Program-made: the position numbers and the translations under genes
In this document: positions 26,937-34,540 of the stretch, piece after piece
Layout of the letters: each line of letters starts with the position of its first letter
How positions within the stretch are numbered: the first letter of the stretch is position 1
The notes under the pieces: generated by a model
The model's database searches: none
Told to the model about the DNA's origin: nothing
What the model saw: only the letters and a program-made list of their open reading frames with translations
Assembly: GCA_028688955.1 (NCBI GenBank)
Contig: JAQTXD010000030.1
Coordinates: 1 to 36,615, forward strand
Length of the DNA stretch: 36,615 nt
Source of the DNA: Desulfuromonadaceae bacterium
GTDB lineage: Bacteria; Desulfobacterota; Desulfuromonadia; Geobacterales; Pseudopelobacteraceae
Direction: 5' to 3'

Positions 26937-27562
26937 TCAACAAGAATGTGTTAATGATATATTTATTATGTAATGAATAAGCAGACAGATTACGATAAAT
27001 TCTGGACTCCTTTTAAGCTGCGTCAGACCAACGCCCTGAATGTACATGGCAGGGATCTGGTCGGGGAAGAAAATACACCGATGAAGACGGCCGACGATAA
27101 CAGCAAAACAGACGCCAACATTGCATTTTTCGATAATCGGCTGTTTGAACCGATGGAGGGGACGAAGGCGCTGAGCAGGAATGCCGATGCGCCGAAAAGT
27201 CTGGCAGCGATCCAGAACTTCGTAGCTTTGCTTGGATTGTTTGGGGTTCTAAACGGCGGCATGCCGATATAACAGAGTGTATGCATGAATTCAATCAGCC
27301 TGATAACAAGGAATGATACACCCAGAAACAACGAATACCGGTCATTATTCTGGTCAGAGACGTTCCACCAAAGGCCCAAAATGGGCTTGGAGACCATGAC
27401 GCTGAAATATTCTGTGATATTGTGAAAGGCGAAGCAGGATAATACATCCACAACCGAGTATGGATTCGATGTAAAGAGCAGCACCAGCAGAAACGGAAGA
27501 GCCGAACCAACAGTAGTAATTGAAAGCAATGATAAAGGGGACACCCGGTCAAGCTTTTTCAT
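26937..27562 (-). pseudogene. MASE3 membrane sensor remnant, frameshifted and truncated
   Basis: The main frame (27562 down to a stop at 27023) encodes 179 residues with the hallmarks of the MASE3 domain. These are FHNITEYFSVMVSKPILGLWW, then EFMHTLCYIGMP and TKFWIAARLFGA, between several membrane helices. The family's closing segment continues in a different frame from about 27070, reading FFPDQIPAMYIQGVGLTQLK (consensus-like GLTxFK) followed by a hydrophobic helix, and stops at 26937. A net one-base change inside TTTTCTTCCCC (about 27062-27073) explains the break. No kinase, PAS or GGDEF output domain follows, so the gene is both frameshifted and C-terminally lost. The start ATG at 27562 has a promoter-like sequence upstream. 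Confidence 0.82.
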
Positions 27563-27896: not shown

Positions 27897-29039
27897 CTAG
27901 AGGGGAATAATTCTGAGGTCAATTGGCCCAATAGATATCAGGTCATTTGGAATTAGCTGTTTTCTGGTAATTGTCTCGCCGTTAACTCTAGTGCCGTTTG
28001 TGCTCAGCAGATCTTCAATCACCAGAGTATTCTCGACTAATTTAAGCTCCGCATGTCGTCGGGAAATGAGACTATTGTTCAGTATCAAATCACAGCCTTT
28101 TCGCCCGATTGTGCACGGAAGCGTTACAGTAAAGCGTTCCCTCTTCAGAGGGCCAGACTCTACGGAAATGATGTAACTTGATGGCACCGGTTTCTGAAGG
28201 AGGGCCGAGACAAGAACATCGAGACCAGCGATTGCTGGCAATGGCGCCAATCCTCTATCACTTTTACGCCTGTTTTTCTGATTACCAACAGGAAATGCCG
28301 GCATCTCAACGTTCCTGCTACGCCTGTTTTTCGGATAGCCGACAGAGAAGAGTACATCGAGTGAGTCTTTGCTGAGCAGGTTTGAATCTGCTGCCATAGT
28401 TGTAACCATGTCACGAAAAATGAACGCCTGAACATCTTCCCCAGGCTGAAATGCGTAGAGAAGCAGCTCTTCGTCGAAAGTCATCCCCTCTGGTCGCTTG
28501 AATGTCAAATCAGCGTAATGTGCAAGTGCCCCTTTTCCATCCCTGAAAAAGAAAAAGTTGAATTTATTGTCCCGGCACAGAGCGATCATTGCATTGGTAC
28601 CAGCCTCACTGATCTGCCGGACAATGTGTTCAAAGTCGATCAGAGAGACAGGAGATTTAACAGTGGGCTCTTCCTGCAGAAAGAGAAGCATGCATTTCAG
28701 TAGAACCGGATCGGTTTCGCAGAGGGTAATGGTCATAGACCCTTCTGACGATTTTGCCAGTTGATCACCGAACTCCTGAATAGAGAAACTGATCGGTTTG
28801 TTGGCAGTGTATCTACCGGCAGCATAGGGAGCACCATTGAAGAAAAAAAGAAAGAGAAGAAAAGGGGCATCCCCCTCAATCTTCAGATATCCGGTATAAG
28901 GAGGAGAAACTGCATAGACCATCTTCAGCAGACTGTGCAGCAGATTGCGAGAAAATGGTTTTTCATCGCAGAGCACTTTCTGTTGGGGGAACTGGTAGAT
29001 TTTTTTCTCATCATTTGTAGCATGCTGCTGCATAGTCAT
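27897..29039 (-). CDS. FHA-domain protein with uncharacterised N-terminal region (380 aa)
   Basis: The C-terminus (about 290-380) is a clear FHA phosphothreonine-binding domain. It has IGRKGCDLIL (Gly312, Arg313), ISRRHAELKL (Ser326, Arg327, His329) and LLSTNGTRVNG (Asn348). The first 270 residues are not recognised. They include a Phe-rich stretch (FLLFLFFFNGAPYAAG), a second similar motif (FNFFFFRDGKGALAHYA), and two short near-repeats around 233-260 (VGYPKNRRSRN and VGNQKNRRKSD). The FFFFRDG/LFFFNG pair suggests a duplicated beta-rich domain. There is no signal peptide. AAGGA precedes the ATG. It diverges from the Ser/Thr kinase operon, so it is a candidate reader of that kinase's phosphorylation. 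Confidence 0.87.
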   Translation of the reverse strand: MTMQQHATNDEKKIYQFPQQKVLCDEKPFSRNLLHSLLKMVYAVSPPYTGYLKIEGDAPFLLFLFFFNGAPYAAGRYTANKPISFSIQEFGDQLAKSSEGSMTITLCETDPVLLKCMLLFLQEEPTVKSPVSLIDFEHIVRQISEAGTNAMIALCRDNKFNFFFFRDGKGALAHYADLTFKRPEGMTFDEELLLYAFQPGEDVQAFIFRDMVTTMAADSNLLSKDSLDVLFSVGYPKNRRSRNVEMPAFPVGNQKNRRKSDRGLAPLPAIAGLDVLVSALLQKPVPSSYIISVESGPLKRERFTVTLPCTIGRKGCDLILNNSLISRRHAELKLVENTLVIEDLLSTNGTRVNGETITRKQLIPNDLISIGPIDLRIIPL

Positions 29040-29488
29040 ATATTCCTTAACATATGTGCTTCAGATCCATACGCTTTTGAGTGAACTGATTACCTCTTCC
29101 AGGCAATTGCCGGTTCAACAGCATCGAGGGGCGGTAATTATACTGATATTTCTGACAACTCAACACATCAGTTCCAGTGTAAATTCAGTGTCATGAGAGT
29201 AAGTTAAAGGAAGTATAGCGGATTTAACAATTTCTGAAAGAGGTTTTTTTGTTTTCCGATACAACAGGTAGACAATGTTGTCTAATCAACTACTTGAGCA
29301 AACATTACACTCTGTGGACTCTTCTCAATTTCTGCATACCCGGCACAATCTGCACAGTATTTTCTTATGTCGGCCGGTTATGTGGTAGTGTCATCGTTTG
29401 AACGTACTGCATATCTGCTAATTATATCTTTACCCCGTAATATTAAATTGATAGTGTTTCTGCTCAAAAAAAAGTTGGAGATCGCTCT
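29040..29488. other. Divergent control region (449 nt) between the FHA and kinase genes
   Basis: No gene supported. It must contain the promoters for both directions, but I cannot assign hexamers with confidence. It is AT-rich and holds a perfect 16-nt palindrome at 29269-29284. A plus-strand frame from 29367 has no Shine-Dalgarno and overlaps the kinase start. Confidence 0.5.
29269..29284. promoter_or_regulatory. Palindrome TAGACAA-tg-TTGTCTA
   Basis: A perfect 7+7 bp dyad with a 2-nt centre lies nearly midway between the divergent FHA and kinase starts (about 230 and 205 nt away). It has the form of an operator for a dimeric regulator that could control both directions. Function is inferred from symmetry and position. 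Confidence 0.45.
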
Positions 29489-30373
29489 GTGGCCAACATC
29501 GCATCTATTGACCTCTCACAATACATTGGTACAACTATCGGAACAGTTACTCTGGTCAAATTAATAGGCCATGGAGCTATGGGCGCTGTATTCATAGGTT
29601 ATCAGGCGACTCTCAAGAGGCAGGTTGCGGTTAAAATCCTTCCCAAATCGCTTGCAAGCAGCCTGAAAGCCCAACAGATGTTCCGTGATGAGGCTGAGAC
29701 GGTTGGGATACTTACCCATCCCAATATTGTGCCTGTTTACGAGATGGGAGAAACCGACGAATTCTTTTTTCAGGTTATGCAACTGGTTGTCGGCCATGAC
29801 CTGAAGACAATAATTGGCAAGGCACAGAAACATCCGGTCCCGACCAGGCGAATCATCCCATTACGGGAAACAATTCAGTTCATCAGCCAGATACTTGATG
29901 CACTCGGGTATGCTCATGAAGAAGGAGTCTTTCATCAAGACATCAAGCCGGCAAATATTCTTGTGGACGACCGGTTCAAACGTGCCGTTGTAGCAGATTT
30001 TGGCATAGCACGTACTGTCTGGGCGGAATACAGTTCCACGCATACTCTGGCCGGAACACCAAAATATATGTCACCAGAACAGGCCGCCTGCACTGAAATT
30101 GATGGTCGGACAGATATTTACTCAGTTGGGGTGATCCTCATGGAGATGACGGTGGGCCTATTGCCGATCCATAAAGAACCACTCGCCGATATGATTAAAC
30201 GCAAGAGATATGAACCGGACACTTTTTTTACAGCCCGACCGTCGCAAATTAATCCATCAATAAGCGGCGATCTCGAGGTGATAATTACCAGGGCGATTGC
30301 ATCGAACCCCGAAAATCGTTTTTGTGATTGCCATGAATTTAAAGAAAGCCTTGAAGCGTACGTTCGAACATGA
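29489..30373 (+). CDS. Cytosolic Ser/Thr protein kinase (Hanks type, HQD variant)
   Basis: This 294-residue protein is a bare Hanks-type kinase domain without transmembrane helix or PASTA repeats. It has the glycine loop GHGAMG (27-32), the ATP-binding Lys49 in VAVKI, catalytic HQDIKPAN with Asp151, Lys153 and Asn156, DFG (170-172), and the activation-segment GTPKYMSPEQAA. The usual HRD arginine is Gln150, making it a non-RD kinase; such kinases are often not controlled by activation-loop phosphorylation. The start is GTG at 29489 with GGAG eight nt upstream. It heads the plus-strand operon with the 726-aa protein, the PP2C phosphatase and the FHA-EAL protein. Confidence 0.93.
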   Translation: MANIASIDLSQYIGTTIGTVTLVKLIGHGAMGAVFIGYQATLKRQVAVKILPKSLASSLKAQQMFRDEAETVGILTHPNIVPVYEMGETDEFFFQVMQLVVGHDLKTIIGKAQKHPVPTRRIIPLRETIQFISQILDALGYAHEEGVFHQDIKPANILVDDRFKRAVVADFGIARTVWAEYSSTHTLAGTPKYMSPEQAACTEIDGRTDIYSVGVILMEMTVGLLPIHKEPLADMIKRKRYEPDTFFTARPSQINPSISGDLEVIITRAIASNPENRFCDCHEFKESLEAYVRT

Positions 30374-30410
30374 AAGCAACTGTAACTGATGTGTCACTCT
30401 ACCGAAATGT

Positions 30411-32591
30411 GTGGACGAACCTGATATGCCCGAAATAGCAATCGATTTAAAGCAGGCACTTCAGATTGCCAGGGCATTCAACCTGGCATTCAATAACGCC
30501 TTCATGTACGGAGGTAGCCACCAGACTACCAAAAACAGTGCTGCATCCTTCTATTCTGTATTGCAGCCAATGCTCGACATTGCGCGTATTATCACTATAA
30601 GCTCTGATAAGGACTCCATTTTTTTTGAAAATCATTGCGTCGACAAATTGGTCAGCGTTCAACGTATTAATAGTCGATTCAAAAAGACGGGAGTCCAGTC
30701 AGTCAGTTTTGACAGAGATGCATCCCTTGAAAGTGTTCTGGCGTTGTTTTACATAATGGGGGGGCTATCTGATTTTCAGAGCGTGGAGGAGATGCAGGCG
30801 TACCTTAATAAAGAGCGTATTTCGGGTGTAAAAATAAATTATGTTGTTTACAAAAAAGTTACGATTGATGATGCCATCGTCAATAAAGACGTACTTTCTG
30901 AGACCCAATTCCTCCTGAACAATCAGCACATCATCGGCTCGGGAACCTACATGCAGGCTGATCCCGGCAGAATTCTCAGGGAAGTTTCCGAAATTCTGTC
31001 ACTGAATAATCCCGCTCATGGTGATGGAGCTTCGGAGACGGGAGGAACCGCCTCCCCTGAATTATCCCAGTCCGACTATGACAAATTCATAACTACACAA
31101 ATAAGATCACTCAATAATCAGCTCATTTCAACTGAAACCTCCGAAGGTGAAGCCGGTCTTAGTCCAACCGAAATGCTCGAGGCAATCTTTAAGATCAAAG
31201 AGAATGTCCTCGAAAATATCAGGCTTCAAAAAGAGACCGGAAAGCTTGTTTCCAGTGGTGAGCTTGCCATTACCGAAATTAATCAAATCAGCTACCAGGT
31301 TATTGTGCGCTTGATTAAGGAGGAATACCGGGGCGACCGAAAAATTTCCGTCAAGAGACTTGCCCAGATTATCCGGCGCATGCTGCCCGATATCAAGGAG
31401 TTGAAATATCTGCTGCCACAGCTTAAAGACGGGCTGTTTGCTGAAGGAATGTCACCGTCGGAATATTTGTCTCTAGTGAAGGAATTGAGTAATGAGCTTG
31501 ATTGTGATGGATTAATCCAGATAATGGTTGAGGCATCTGATCAGATCGGTCTTTCCTTGAATGAGTTGATTGACAGTATCAAGGAGGCACCGGAAGAAGC
31601 AGCACGGCTCATCGTGCTTGCAGCAGAAATTAAAAAAGGCGGCATCACTACTGACGAGCAGCAGATGTCTGCAGTTCTGTGCGATTATATTGAAAAAGTA
31701 AGCCGGGCCCTGGCGCTGCAATCCCCTGAAACTACAGTGAGTGGCGGTGGCAAGATGTTGAAAGCTGCCGTGACGAGAATTGAACGTGAAATTATAGGCC
31801 GATTGAAGTCACAGAATATCGGTGCGAACACAATCTCTGACGTTGCCCAGAAACTTGCAGATCAGTTTTCGGAAACCCTTCTGGTTTTGAAAGGCGAATG
31901 GGCCAGAAAGAACGTCACCGGTTCGAAAAGACTGGATGAAGAAACGGTACTTTCGATTATTGAGCAGATTGCAGGACAGGGACATGAAAGTGATAGTCTT
32001 GTCGGAGAAATCCGGACCATTCTGATTTCCCATGGTTTTTCTGCCGAAAAAATTGACAGTATGGTTAATGAGGTCCGACTTCGTGCTGAAGCAGCGGTAA
32101 CACATAAGATAGAAATGCCTAAGGGCACATACAACGCTTCAACCATGGCGTTTTTCCTGAACCTGGAAATCAAGCGTAACAACCGCTACAACTCGCCCTT
32201 TTCCACTATTCTTGTCTCATATGAGAAAATCGTTGATCTTCGCACATTCACCATCATCGAGGTAACTCCTGACAGAGAGATCCAGTTGACCAACCAGTCC
32301 CTGAAATTACTGAAAGACATGCAAAGGGATCTTGATGTAATTGGTATTTGTACAATAAATGATATAAGCGTTCTTCTGATTGTATTGCCCATGACAGATG
32401 TAACCGGTGCGCTCTATGTTAAAAAGAGGATCGAAAAGGATTTCCCATGCCATGAATTTCTTGTTGACGGCATTACGGTTCACATTGAACCGGCAATTAC
32501 TGCATCAAGCTATAACAACAAAATGACACCTGATACAGCTTCTTATCTCAAATCTATTTATCAGCTGTACACACAACCAAAACTGCAATAG
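30411..32591 (+). CDS. Uncharacterised 726-aa protein with degenerate GGDEF-like C-terminus
   Basis: The N-terminal 140 residues (ALQIARAFNLAFNNAFMYGG and onward) resemble a helical/beta module found in Geobacter signalling proteins, but I cannot name it. The middle, about 200-560, is helical and acidic with coiled-coil character. Residues 572-720 follow the GGDEF topology: an opening LEIKRNNRYNSPFSTILVSYE (GGDEF-type Ra-Ry-x-plS). Later the signature position reads TINDISVLLIVLP instead of GGDEFAILLP, and then TDVTGALYVKKRIEKDF. The catalytic Gly-Gly-Asp/Glu-Glu residues are lost, so cyclase activity is not expected. The start is GTG at 30411 or ATG at 30426, both with poor Shine-Dalgarno. 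It lies between kinase and phosphatase genes and is a candidate substrate. Confidence 0.8.
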   Translation: MDEPDMPEIAIDLKQALQIARAFNLAFNNAFMYGGSHQTTKNSAASFYSVLQPMLDIARIITISSDKDSIFFENHCVDKLVSVQRINSRFKKTGVQSVSFDRDASLESVLALFYIMGGLSDFQSVEEMQAYLNKERISGVKINYVVYKKVTIDDAIVNKDVLSETQFLLNNQHIIGSGTYMQADPGRILREVSEILSLNNPAHGDGASETGGTASPELSQSDYDKFITTQIRSLNNQLISTETSEGEAGLSPTEMLEAIFKIKENVLENIRLQKETGKLVSSGELAITEINQISYQVIVRLIKEEYRGDRKISVKRLAQIIRRMLPDIKELKYLLPQLKDGLFAEGMSPSEYLSLVKELSNELDCDGLIQIMVEASDQIGLSLNELIDSIKEAPEEAARLIVLAAEIKKGGITTDEQQMSAVLCDYIEKVSRALALQSPETTVSGGGKMLKAAVTRIEREIIGRLKSQNIGANTISDVAQKLADQFSETLLVLKGEWARKNVTGSKRLDEETVLSIIEQIAGQGHESDSLVGEIRTILISHGFSAEKIDSMVNEVRLRAEAAVTHKIEMPKGTYNASTMAFFLNLEIKRNNRYNSPFSTILVSYEKIVDLRTFTIIEVTPDREIQLTNQSLKLLKDMQRDLDVIGICTINDISVLLIVLPMTDVTGALYVKKRIEKDFPCHEFLVDGITVHIEPAITASSYNNKMTPDTASYLKSIYQLYTQPKLQ

Positions 32592-32598
32592 TACTATC

Positions 32599-33378
32599 AT
32601 GATCTCAGCCCACGCCAGTCATCCCGGCCTTGTTCGCCAGAATAACGAAGATTGCATCCTCACTGATGATGACCTCGGCATCTACCTGCTTGCCGACGGT
32701 ATCGGCGGTCATAATGCCGGCGAGGTAGCAAGCGCCCTTGCTATCGAAACTGTCTATACGATTCTGCGGTCAAATATCGCACATACTGATGTTGAGGATT
32801 TTTTTGAACTTATGGTGCATGCCGTGCAAGCCGCACATTGGGAGGTAAACTCCAAATCCCTTTCACACGATTCATTTACAAGGATGGGAACAACCCTGGC
32901 CGTTGCAGTAATGCGGGATGATAAGGCGTATATCGTGCACGCCGGTGACAGTCGCTGCTACCTGCTTCCGGGCGGGTCACATCCTCACACTGACCCTCCC
33001 GTTACACTGCAGGCTTTAGCGGTCGGGAAGACACTAAAAATCATGAGACTGACTCACGATCACACCGTGGGCGATCAATTGCTGGCAAACGGCATTGCAA
33101 TGGGAGATATTCCAAAGAAACAATTTCACACACTGACCCAATCAGTCGGATGCGGAAATCCGCCGTATCCGGATTTTAATAGCGTAGAATTCAAGCGGGG
33201 GGATTTACTTCTCATCTGTTCAGACGGGTTGACCGATATGCTGGCTGATGCAGAAATCGAAGCCATACTGACTCGGAGAGACACCGGCATTGACACACTG
33301 GTCGTTGATCTTATCAATGCTGCCAATGCAAACGGCGGCAGGGATAATATCTCTGTGATTCTGATAACATCGCCCTAA
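32599..33378 (+). CDS. PP2C-type protein serine/threonine phosphatase
   Basis: This 259-residue cytosolic phosphatase would reverse phosphorylation by the nearby kinase. All metal-binding motifs of bacterial PP2C (PPM) proteins are present. They are VRQNNEDC (Glu17, Asp18), LADGIGGHNAGE (Asp33, Gly34), MGTTLAVAV, HAGDSRCYLL, CSDGLTDML and GGRDNISVI. Between GDSR and the LTHDHT strand there is an insertion of about 25 residues (PGGSHPHTDPP and onward) that is not typical. It begins 7 nt after the stop of the 726-aa gene, so they are cotranscribed. No membrane segment is present. Confidence 0.93.
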   Translation: MISAHASHPGLVRQNNEDCILTDDDLGIYLLADGIGGHNAGEVASALAIETVYTILRSNIAHTDVEDFFELMVHAVQAAHWEVNSKSLSHDSFTRMGTTLAVAVMRDDKAYIVHAGDSRCYLLPGGSHPHTDPPVTLQALAVGKTLKIMRLTHDHTVGDQLLANGIAMGDIPKKQFHTLTQSVGCGNPPYPDFNSVEFKRGDLLLICSDGLTDMLADAEIEAILTRRDTGIDTLVVDLINAANANGGRDNISVILITSP

Positions 33379-33478
33379 ACAGGAAAGCTTTCGTTTTAAA
33401 AAGAGTAATTCCCATCGATACTCTTTGAGATGCTGTTGGTACCTTTTGACAACAGAAATAAATGCAGGGGAAGAATTC

Positions 33479-34540
33479 ATGAGTATAACCGTAAACGCCA
33501 TGCCGCTCAGGCTTGAGAGAAGGTCTCAAGACGAAAGCCTGTGGGTAATCCCTATTGAGTTTTCGCCATTTATTATCGGGAGGAGTGAAGGGTCAAACCT
33601 TCTTCTGACTGCTGAGGAGGTTTCCCGGAAACATGCTGAAATACTCGAGACGGGCGACGGTTGGCGGATCAAGGATTGCGGCAGCACCAACGGTACGTTT
33701 GTCAACGGCAGACGATTGACAGATAATTATCTGCTCAATCACGGAGACTATATCACCATTGGCGGAATCAGGTTCGATGTTGTTGAGCAGATCGATGATG
33801 CCGAATGTACTCAGTTTGTTAGCCCGGATGCAGAAAACCTGGAACGGATGCTCGATCTGAAAGCGGTTGTGCCACATTTCCAGCCACTTATATCTCTCAA
33901 GGACGGTTCTTTAACCGGGTATGAAATTTTAGGAAGAATTGCATATGACGGCCTTCCGAAAAGCCCGGCACAGTTGTTCGAAATTTCCCGACGTCTCGGA
34001 AGACAGATTGAATTGAGTGAGTTGTTCAGGGACACGGCACTTGAACATGCTGCACAACTCGGGATTAAGGAACTGATCCTCTTTAATACTCTGCCGGAAG
34101 AGATGAACCTTGAATGCCTCGGCAGGTCCCTGAAAAAGCTCAGGGAGTCGGTACCCGGTTTGAAACTGGGGCTGGAGCTCCATGAAAACACAATCACCAA
34201 TGTAGAGATGATGAAGAACCTGAGGTCAATGTTGCATGATCTGGATATGTTGCTTGTTTATGATGATTTTGGAGCTGGTCAGTCTCGGCTTGTCGAATTG
34301 CTTGACTCTGTTCCGGACATTGTTAAGTTCGATATAGCACTTATCCAAAATATTCAGAAACGTTCGGAAATCTCGCGTTCCATAGTGGAAACCCTGGTTA
34401 AGATGGCACGTGATGCTGGTATCCGCACCCTTGCTGAAGGAGTAGACAGCCGTGAAGAGGCCGAGACATGCAGATCTATCGGCTTTGAACTCGCGCAAGG
34501 TTTTTATTTTGGCCGCCCTGCCCCCCTCTCACAACTTTAG
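33479..34540 (+). CDS. FHA-EAL fusion protein (phosphothreonine-binding c-di-GMP phosphodiesterase candidate)
   Basis: The 353-residue protein starts at the ATG at 33479, preceded by AGGGGAAG; the frame extends 18 codons upstream without support. Residues 25-100 are an FHA domain: FIIGRSEGSN (Arg35), EVSRKHAEI (Ser49, Arg50, His52) and GSTNGTFVNG (Asn71). Residues 130-353 are an EAL domain. Its motif reads YEILGR (Glu149). Asn203 in LFNTLP, Glu233/236 in LELHEN, Asp262-Asp263 in DDFGAG, Lys283 in VKFD, Glu320 in LAEGVDS and QGFYFGRP are all kept, so hydrolysis of c-di-GMP is plausible. It lies 100 nt after the PP2C gene and closes the module. Confidence 0.92.
   Translation: MSITVNAMPLRLERRSQDESLWVIPIEFSPFIIGRSEGSNLLLTAEEVSRKHAEILETGDGWRIKDCGSTNGTFVNGRRLTDNYLLNHGDYITIGGIRFDVVEQIDDAECTQFVSPDAENLERMLDLKAVVPHFQPLISLKDGSLTGYEILGRIAYDGLPKSPAQLFEISRRLGRQIELSELFRDTALEHAAQLGIKELILFNTLPEEMNLECLGRSLKKLRESVPGLKLGLELHENTITNVEMMKNLRSMLHDLDMLLVYDDFGAGQSRLVELLDSVPDIVKFDIALIQNIQKRSEISRSIVETLVKMARDAGIRTLAEGVDSREEAETCRSIGFELAQGFYFGRPAPLSQL

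Follow-up and report, generated by a model that had tools for sequence, protein, structure and literature searches.

A conserved kinase-phosphatase-FHA gene module of the Pseudopelobacteraceae encodes a candidate c-di-GMP receptor

We analysed contig JAQTXD010000030.1 of a Desulfuromonadaceae bacterium (assembly GCA_028688955.1; GTDB family Pseudopelobacteraceae), a stretch of 36,615 nucleotides hereafter called the window, which is an entire contig of a 3.95-Mb genome (99% complete, 5.9% contamination). A check of the open reading frames (ORFs) of the window placed five genes within positions 27897-34540 (Table 1): FHA1, which encodes a protein with an FHA domain, and, divergent from it, a row on the plus strand that encodes a Ser/Thr kinase (STK), a protein of 726 residues (P726), a PP2C-type phosphatase (PP2C) and a fusion of an FHA and an EAL domain (FHA-EAL), with intergenic gaps of 37, 7 and 100 bp. 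A preliminary description made from the letters of this DNA had read the five genes as a divergent FHA protein, a Hanks kinase, a degenerate GGDEF protein, a PP2C phosphatase and an FHA-EAL fusion; the ORFs, with Pfam, profile and model evidence, confirm this reading, including the divergence of FHA1 from STK. Here we report that the first four genes are a conserved module, that FHA-EAL is an accessory to it, and that P726 is better read as a candidate receptor of cyclic di-GMP (c-di-GMP).

Table 1. Genes, domains and residues of the locus, with their positions in the window
Feature	Position	Strand	Evidence or remark
FHA1, 380 aa	27897..29039	-	ORF and Pfam; N-terminal part of ~280 aa, then C-terminal FHA domain
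FHA domain of FHA1	27927-28115	-	Pfam FHA, E=1.1e-15
Intergenic region between divergent FHA1 and STK, 449 bp	29040..29488	.	No Rfam match at gathering score
STK, Hanks-type Ser/Thr kinase, 294 aa, GTG start	29489..30373	+	Pfam Pkinase, 4.3e-45
P726, member of the P7xx family	30411..32591	+	Alpha/beta domain at the N-terminus, then a low-confidence linker, a helical middle and the degenerate GGDEF
Degenerate GGDEF domain of P726, residues 570-725	32118..32585	+	Profile, model, Foldseek
I-site RxxD of P726 (R639, D642)	32325..32336	+	Present in 34/34 sequences
R673 of P726, second I-site arginine	32427..32429	+	Proposed equivalent of PelD R402 and SgmT R794; 33/34
PP2C-type Ser/Thr phosphatase, 259 aa	32599..33378	+	Pfam PP2C_2, 2.9e-13
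FHA-EAL	33479..34540	+	FHA 33572-33763 (Pfam, 3.4e-20); EAL 33833-34519 (Pfam, 9.7e-38)
Thr111 in the linker of FHA-EAL, candidate phosphosite	33809..33811	+	Invariant in 7/7, down to 38% identity

Firstly, we assessed the conservation of the locus; compared genomes and loci are designated here by G and L numbers. Full-length or nearly full-length P726 was found in 14 genomes among the 277 of the class that were searched, one copy being cut by a contig end, and all 14 belong to the window's own family (76 genomes). In each of these module genomes an FHA1 ortholog is present and divergent from STK-P726 (14/14), and the same genomes, and no others, have STK orthologs at E<1e-140, the next best kinases scoring 1e-47 or weaker. 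PP2C lies downstream of P726 in all 13 contigs that are long enough, and the remaining contig ends early. The module genomes include Trichlorobacter thiogenes ATCC BAA-34, in which the order of the core is kept, and several Geobacter sp. assemblies; most of the compared loci lie in fragmented, often metagenomic, assemblies, and our counts are of genomes or genes, not of independent events. The flanks of the core differ mostly between genomes, some Trichlorobacter relatives having common flanks, and the ratio of nonsynonymous to synonymous substitution rates (dN/dS), computed pairwise with a single relative (G227), lies at 0.10-0.24 in each of the five genes, which look to be under purifying selection. 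Since FHA1 | STK-P726 stand in one order in 14 genomes whose flanks mostly differ, and dN/dS is low, the association exceeds chance, and it is supported that kinase, phosphatase and FHA reader are one conserved unit. The preliminary description would have been refuted had the five families not co-occurred in related genomes; for four of them this refutation failed, whereas FHA-EAL is present in 4/14, and the core module is four genes (FHA1, STK, P726 and PP2C), not five.

The residues on which the activities of the signalling proteins would depend are kept. The kinase domain of STK spans residues 22-279, with no further Pfam domain, and its catalytic residues K49, E68, D151, K153, N156 and D170 are invariant (20/20). 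The arginine of the HRD motif is a Gln in the window, and the motif reads HQD or HLD in 14/14 module genomes; control of STK via its activation loop is therefore uncertain. D33, G34, D117, D209, D249 and N250 of PP2C are likewise invariant (13/13), as are the binding residues of FHA1, G312, R313, S326, H329, N348 and T350, in 25/25 aligned members. The N-terminal part of FHA1 gave a match to DUF4388 only at E=0.036, in one of the 25. FHA1 orthologs without STK or P726 exist in G216 and G226, and near them lies a gene for a PilZN1-PilZ protein with RxxxR and NxSxxG motifs (L146 2757-3890; L147 7828-8967), which adjoins FHA1 divergently in G226 and is convergent with it in G216, a 120-aa ORF lying in between. 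G204 has a second copy of FHA1 (50-58% identity), at a locus that also encodes an STK, a Sel1-repeat protein, a PP2C and a short FHA protein (L145 5295-11416).

Secondly, we followed P726 outside the window's family. No Pfam, NCBIfam or PADLOC model names this protein. Relatives of like length and ~26-33% identity, which together with P726 we call the P7xx family, were found in 8 of the 395 genomes of a phylum draw, from seven further families (9 genes, one of them a C-terminal fragment), and in 14/85 genomes of the class of G308, of which G308 and G647 were also in the phylum draw; G368 holds a fragment. An STK lies directly upstream on the same strand at 14/14 P7xx loci inside the window's family and at 14/17 informative loci outside it (6/8, and 8/9 further ones), a count that leaves out G278, G368, G672, G683 and G716, in which the contig end is too near or the gene is a fragment. 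G672, G673 and G674 are one genus, and neither these 17 loci nor the 34 sequences aligned below are independent lineages. In G715 and G278 an FHA gene lies directly downstream of P7xx, the FHA domain in G278 being fused to DUF4388. P7xx is a previously unnamed protein family tied to the kinase STK. A plasmid collection held no match to P726 at E<=1e-15. The N-terminal domain of P726 recurs in proteins of ~720-735 aa from further families in the class (L047-L050), which are repeat-like by eye, and no STK, PP2C or FHA matches were found near their loci.

Thirdly, we analysed the C-terminal domain of P726. Taken alone, P726 matches only PelD_GGDEF in Pfam, below threshold (E=0.069; 13.5 bits vs a cut-off of 27), and a relative scores 16.7 bits with that model, also below the cut-off. 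The profile of the P7xx family matches solved GGDEF domains (E=4.1e-10), and one relative (L125) passes the Pfam GGDEF cut-off (27.7 vs 23.8 bits). In the structural model of P726, residues 571-720 have a predicted local distance difference test score (pLDDT) of 80-93 by block, and Foldseek matched the modelled C-terminus to PleD (3.1e-5) and further GGDEF structures, with a target template-modelling (TM) score of 0.71 for 3ign and 3hva. The profile alignment sets R639xxD642 on the RxxD of the inhibitory site (I-site) and R673, which lies in a helix, on that of AERIR, likewise an arginine. We then aligned 34 P7xx C-termini, which include a distant C-terminal fragment from G099; G273, G431 and G719, which have no C-terminus, were left out. 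The GG[DE]EF signature is absent from all of them (0/34), and the column of the metal-binding Asp (603) is occupied by S, T, C, G or A in 34/34. R639 and D642 are found in every sequence and R673 in 33, the single exception being a Lys in the second copy of G301 (L127), a gene that also has no adjoining STK. R639, D642, P660 and T662 are the sole invariant columns of the domain. We rejected an active diguanylate cyclase, given the missing signature, and membership of the PelD family, given scores below the Pfam cut-off.

To put these columns in context, we examined 33 other GGDEF-type domains from the compared loci, 19 with the signature and 14 without, a control set that is biased because it was found by similarity to P7xx and contains close relatives. 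The RxxD motif, usual in these controls, was rejected as telling by itself. Among the raw sequences of the signature-less controls, RxxD occurs in 3/14 and RxxxD in 11/14, and those 11 are apparently one related group; the exact RxxD spacing is therefore not kept automatically. The receptor claim rests on the invariance of the I-site combined with the lost active site, and P726 is better read as a degenerate GGDEF protein with an intact I-site that may bind c-di-GMP. The same family or order also encodes, by eye, receiver-like plus GGDEF-like proteins (L101-L104) with signatures such as WNEYHF or GADAF, which carry RxxxD instead of RxxD and are a separate degenerate class.

FHA-EAL is accessory to the module yet strongly tied to it. 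Close orthologs (E<=1e-30) occur in 5 of the 76 family genomes, four of which are module genomes (Fisher p=0.0035, uncorrected for relatedness). Each of the four carries the gene at the module, after PP2C in the window, after FHA1 in G213 and G204, and before FHA1 in G227, and its bearers are scattered on the core gene tree, many nodes of which have low support; gene trees were used solely for this point. The fifth ortholog, in G233, a genome without P726, is 75% identical to that of the window and sits inside a type VI secretion system (T6SS) cluster, between VipB-like and VgrG-like genes, with TssF, TssG and a ClpV-like ATPase nearby. At least two further nearly full-length genes, in G417 and G566, were found in the phylum draw, in which up to five candidates per genome were scored and a partial match in G260 (profile 41-348) was left out. 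In G417, which belongs to another family and has other kinases, the row reads STK-225aa-PP2C-FHA-EAL-STK; genes for a caspase-domain protein and two OmpA-domain proteins adjoin it (L223 2728-5879). Around the G566 gene, within ~9 kb, the T6SS proteins of G233 had no match. No match to FHA-EAL was found in the plasmid collection at E<=1e-30. Residues E149, N203, E233, E236, D262, D263, K283, E320 and Q340 of the EAL domain, which we take to be the catalytic positions by assignment from RocR, are invariant (7/7), the EAL motif itself reading E-I-L in the window, and so are the FHA binding residues G34, R35, S49, R50, H52 and N71 (7/7). Thr111, in the linker after the FHA domain, has V or I at +3 in 6/7 sequences, a context that fits a pTxxI-type FHA ligand.

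Two starts should probably be moved: that of FHA-EAL to the ATG at 33479, because a Met stands there in 5/5 aligned sequences, giving 353 aa instead of 371, and that of P726 from 30411 to 30426, because a Met is aligned there in 10/12 orthologs, some of whose starts had been trimmed beforehand. The FHA domains of FHA1 and FHA-EAL are the only ones of the whole genome at E<=0.001. A scan of the window with Rfam gave no family at gathering score. Promoter-like sites are at shuffle level (11 vs 12.6); terminator-like sites exceed it (12 vs 6.9, standard deviation 2.5), several of them being one hairpin recounted, and were not used as evidence. Beside FHA1, a 179-aa ORF (27023-27562, minus strand) spans positions 6-125 of the 226-position MASE3 model and looks like a truncated membrane-sensor remnant.

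Judging from the sequences, we regard it as moderately probable that the locus is a stand-alone c-di-GMP receptor module controlled by a kinase and a phosphatase, with local removal of c-di-GMP where FHA-EAL is present. Starting from the observed gene order, residue conservation and predicted fold of the P726 C-terminus, we infer substrates, binding and output as follows. STK and PP2C would set the threonine-phosphorylation state of the module components, chiefly that of P726: STK would phosphorylate this near-constant neighbour and PP2C would reverse the modification. P726 would bind c-di-GMP via its I-site and so integrate the c-di-GMP level with the state of the kinase. FHA1 would dock on a phosphorylated partner, its N-terminal part carrying the output. 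FHA-EAL could be recruited or switched by this phosphothreonine signal too, perhaps through its own Thr111 by analogy with DgcB (see below), and would hydrolyse c-di-GMP next to P726, creating a local feedback. The preliminary description had proposed that phosphothreonine recognition controls c-di-GMP turnover; the link to c-di-GMP is supported by the intact EAL residues and the preserved I-site, whereas the emphasis on turnover shifts, P726 being the better candidate as a receptor.

Several observations weigh against this proposal. In the signature-bearing controls RxxD occurs in 18/19, the second-position arginine in 12/19 and both in 11/19; RxxD is the rule in GGDEF domains, so that finding it is by itself no proof of a receptor, and the motif is given as necessary, not sufficient, in PMC3838380. 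The spacing from RxxD to the arginine is 31 in the window's family vs 28 in P7xx outside it. The model of whole P726 is poor (predicted TM score 0.32), and PelD is not among the 50 Foldseek matches listed for the modelled C-terminus. Three of the 17 distant P7xx loci have no adjoining STK (the second copy of G301, G647 and G680), and PP2C was not found beside the distant STK-P7xx pairs, among the neighbours examined. FHA-EAL is absent from 10/14 module genomes, so that local hydrolysis is not essential, and in G566 it has no STK or PP2C match within ~9 kb. Finally, the PilZ protein near FHA1 in G216 and G226 was not found at any other compared locus.

Some of these points suit a kinase scaffold without nucleotide, in which P726 would be both substrate and scaffold of STK, the GGDEF remnant would be structural, and c-di-GMP would enter only via the optional FHA-EAL. 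The frequency of RxxD in the signature-bearing controls and the presence of FHA-EAL in just 4/14 module genomes are consistent with it, as is the finding that P726 is most conserved in its helical middle, not in the GGDEF domain (block means of identity 0.64-0.72 over residues 281-440, 31 sequences). However, the I-site residues are among the sole invariant columns of a domain whose active site has drifted, and most of the other signature-less domains, although they look like one related group, have RxxxD in place of RxxD. We consider the scaffold unlikely.

It is improbable, in our view, that the core controls a process independent of c-di-GMP and that FHA-EAL is an independently acquired passenger. 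The scatter of its bearers on the core tree and its occurrence in the non-module contexts of G233, G566 and G417 would be expected of a passenger; yet the gene stands at the module in three positions, retains its FHA residues in 7/7 sequences, and accompanies another kinase-PP2C set in G417.

A further alternative is that the locus is a detached threonine-phosphorylation pathway of the PpkA/PppA/Fha type, either working on a T6SS whose genes lie at another site or surviving as the remnant of such a pathway. In addition to the G233 ortholog inside a T6SS cluster, a gene for DUF4123, a T6SS-associated family, lies ~7 kb from FHA-EAL in G417, and VipB occurs in 4/14 module genomes vs 5/62 others (Fisher p=0.054). 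However, no VipB match was found in 10/14 module genomes, the window's own (G000) included, and FHA1 and FHA-EAL reach 22.6 and 38.3 bits against the NCBIfam TagH cut-off of 120.25. A T6SS satellite was rejected as the main explanation on the VipB result, and we hold it to be quite improbable. The preliminary description had stated that no secretion genes occur here: this agrees with the lack of a VipB match in the genome, VipB being the only secretion family searched, whereas the 75%-identical FHA-EAL of G233 does lie among such genes. An anti-phage defence kinase module is highly improbable and was rejected, since the matches of STK to PADLOC PD-T4-6 kinase models (best 1e-69) are limited to the kinase domain, on which 34 PADLOC models fall, several systems being among the 25 listed (suggesting general Hanks-kinase similarity), while at E<=1e-5 no PADLOC model matches FHA1, P726 or FHA-EAL and PP2C is matched just in part (4.2e-10).

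If the receptor module functions as proposed, one protein reads both Ser/Thr phosphorylation and c-di-GMP; to our knowledge, the crosstalk of bacterial Ser/Thr kinases with c-di-GMP signalling is mostly open. The locus brings together genes for a kinase, a phosphatase, two phosphothreonine readers and a candidate c-di-GMP receptor, in some cases also for a phosphodiesterase, and because of this, and because the core order is kept in T. thiogenes ATCC BAA-34, the connection is testable with few proteins; the unnamed kinase-linked P7xx family thereby gains a concrete, testable function. More tentatively, P7xx might be a class of c-di-GMP receptors with dedicated Hanks-kinase partners in several lineages of the phylum; in the window's lineage they would have gained a PP2C, an output protein with an FHA domain and an EAL protein directed to phosphothreonine, making a self-contained reversible switch that removes c-di-GMP locally.

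The theme of kinase, phosphatase and FHA protein is itself recurrent, because five paralogous STK-PP2C-FHA1-like loci exist in the family (L142, L143, L144, L152 and L153), found in relatives of Trichlorobacter and in a single genome from the genus of the window. As in the window, kinase, phosphatase and FHA1-type protein are close together, with STK and PP2C on the same strand and the FHA1-like gene convergent. They differ from the window in the architecture of the kinase, a long STK of 825-841 aa (a CHASE2-kinase by Pfam in L142), in their 30-36% identity to the window proteins, in having no P7xx match, and in a similarity to FHA-EAL that is limited to the FHA domain. In L142, where Pfam identifies them, shikimate-pathway genes adjoin this paralogous unit; in L143 and L144 the gene lengths point to the same neighbours. 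What is new in the window is the P7xx receptor candidate together with FHA-EAL. The threonine phosphorylation pathway of the T6SS, PpkA-PppA-Fha, likewise groups a kinase, a PP2C and an FHA reader, as the window module does; the window locus differs by having no secretion genes among the neighbours examined and by its candidate c-di-GMP receptor and EAL protein.

Among the matches listed from openly licensed papers, the combination of FHA1, STK, P7xx, PP2C and FHA-EAL is not described. The preliminary description was right, to this extent and as regards database names for P726, in calling it no named system; the link between an FHA domain and a c-di-GMP enzyme nevertheless has a precedent in DgcB (FHA-GGDEF) of Bdellovibrio bacteriovorus (PMC6733907). 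In that paper, the enzyme is gated by a phosphothreonine tail, a kinase is postulated and not identified, and a Sorangium kinase-tail-FHA-GGDEF fusion is noted. DgcB is the nearest precedent, having, like FHA-EAL, an FHA domain with phosphothreonine-binding residues fused to a c-di-GMP domain. FHA-EAL differs in carrying an EAL phosphodiesterase, of opposite sign, and a candidate Thr in the linker after the FHA domain, and in being encoded alongside a kinase, a phosphatase and a separate candidate receptor. As for P7xx, the loss of the GGDEF signature with retention of RxxD and a second arginine resembles SgmT and PopA (PMC3509222) and PelD (PMC2170427, PMC7112168). SgmT binds c-di-GMP by the I-site R763/D766, with R794 secondary (PMC3509222), and PelD through R367/D370/R402 (PMC2170427); the spacing from the Asp to the second arginine is 28 in SgmT, 32 in P. 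aeruginosa PelD and 29 in B. cereus PelD, and in P7xx 28 outside and 31 inside the window's family. SgmT is a histidine kinase and PelD acts in Pel polysaccharide production, whereas the N-terminal parts of P7xx proteins are different and their usual neighbour is a Hanks kinase.

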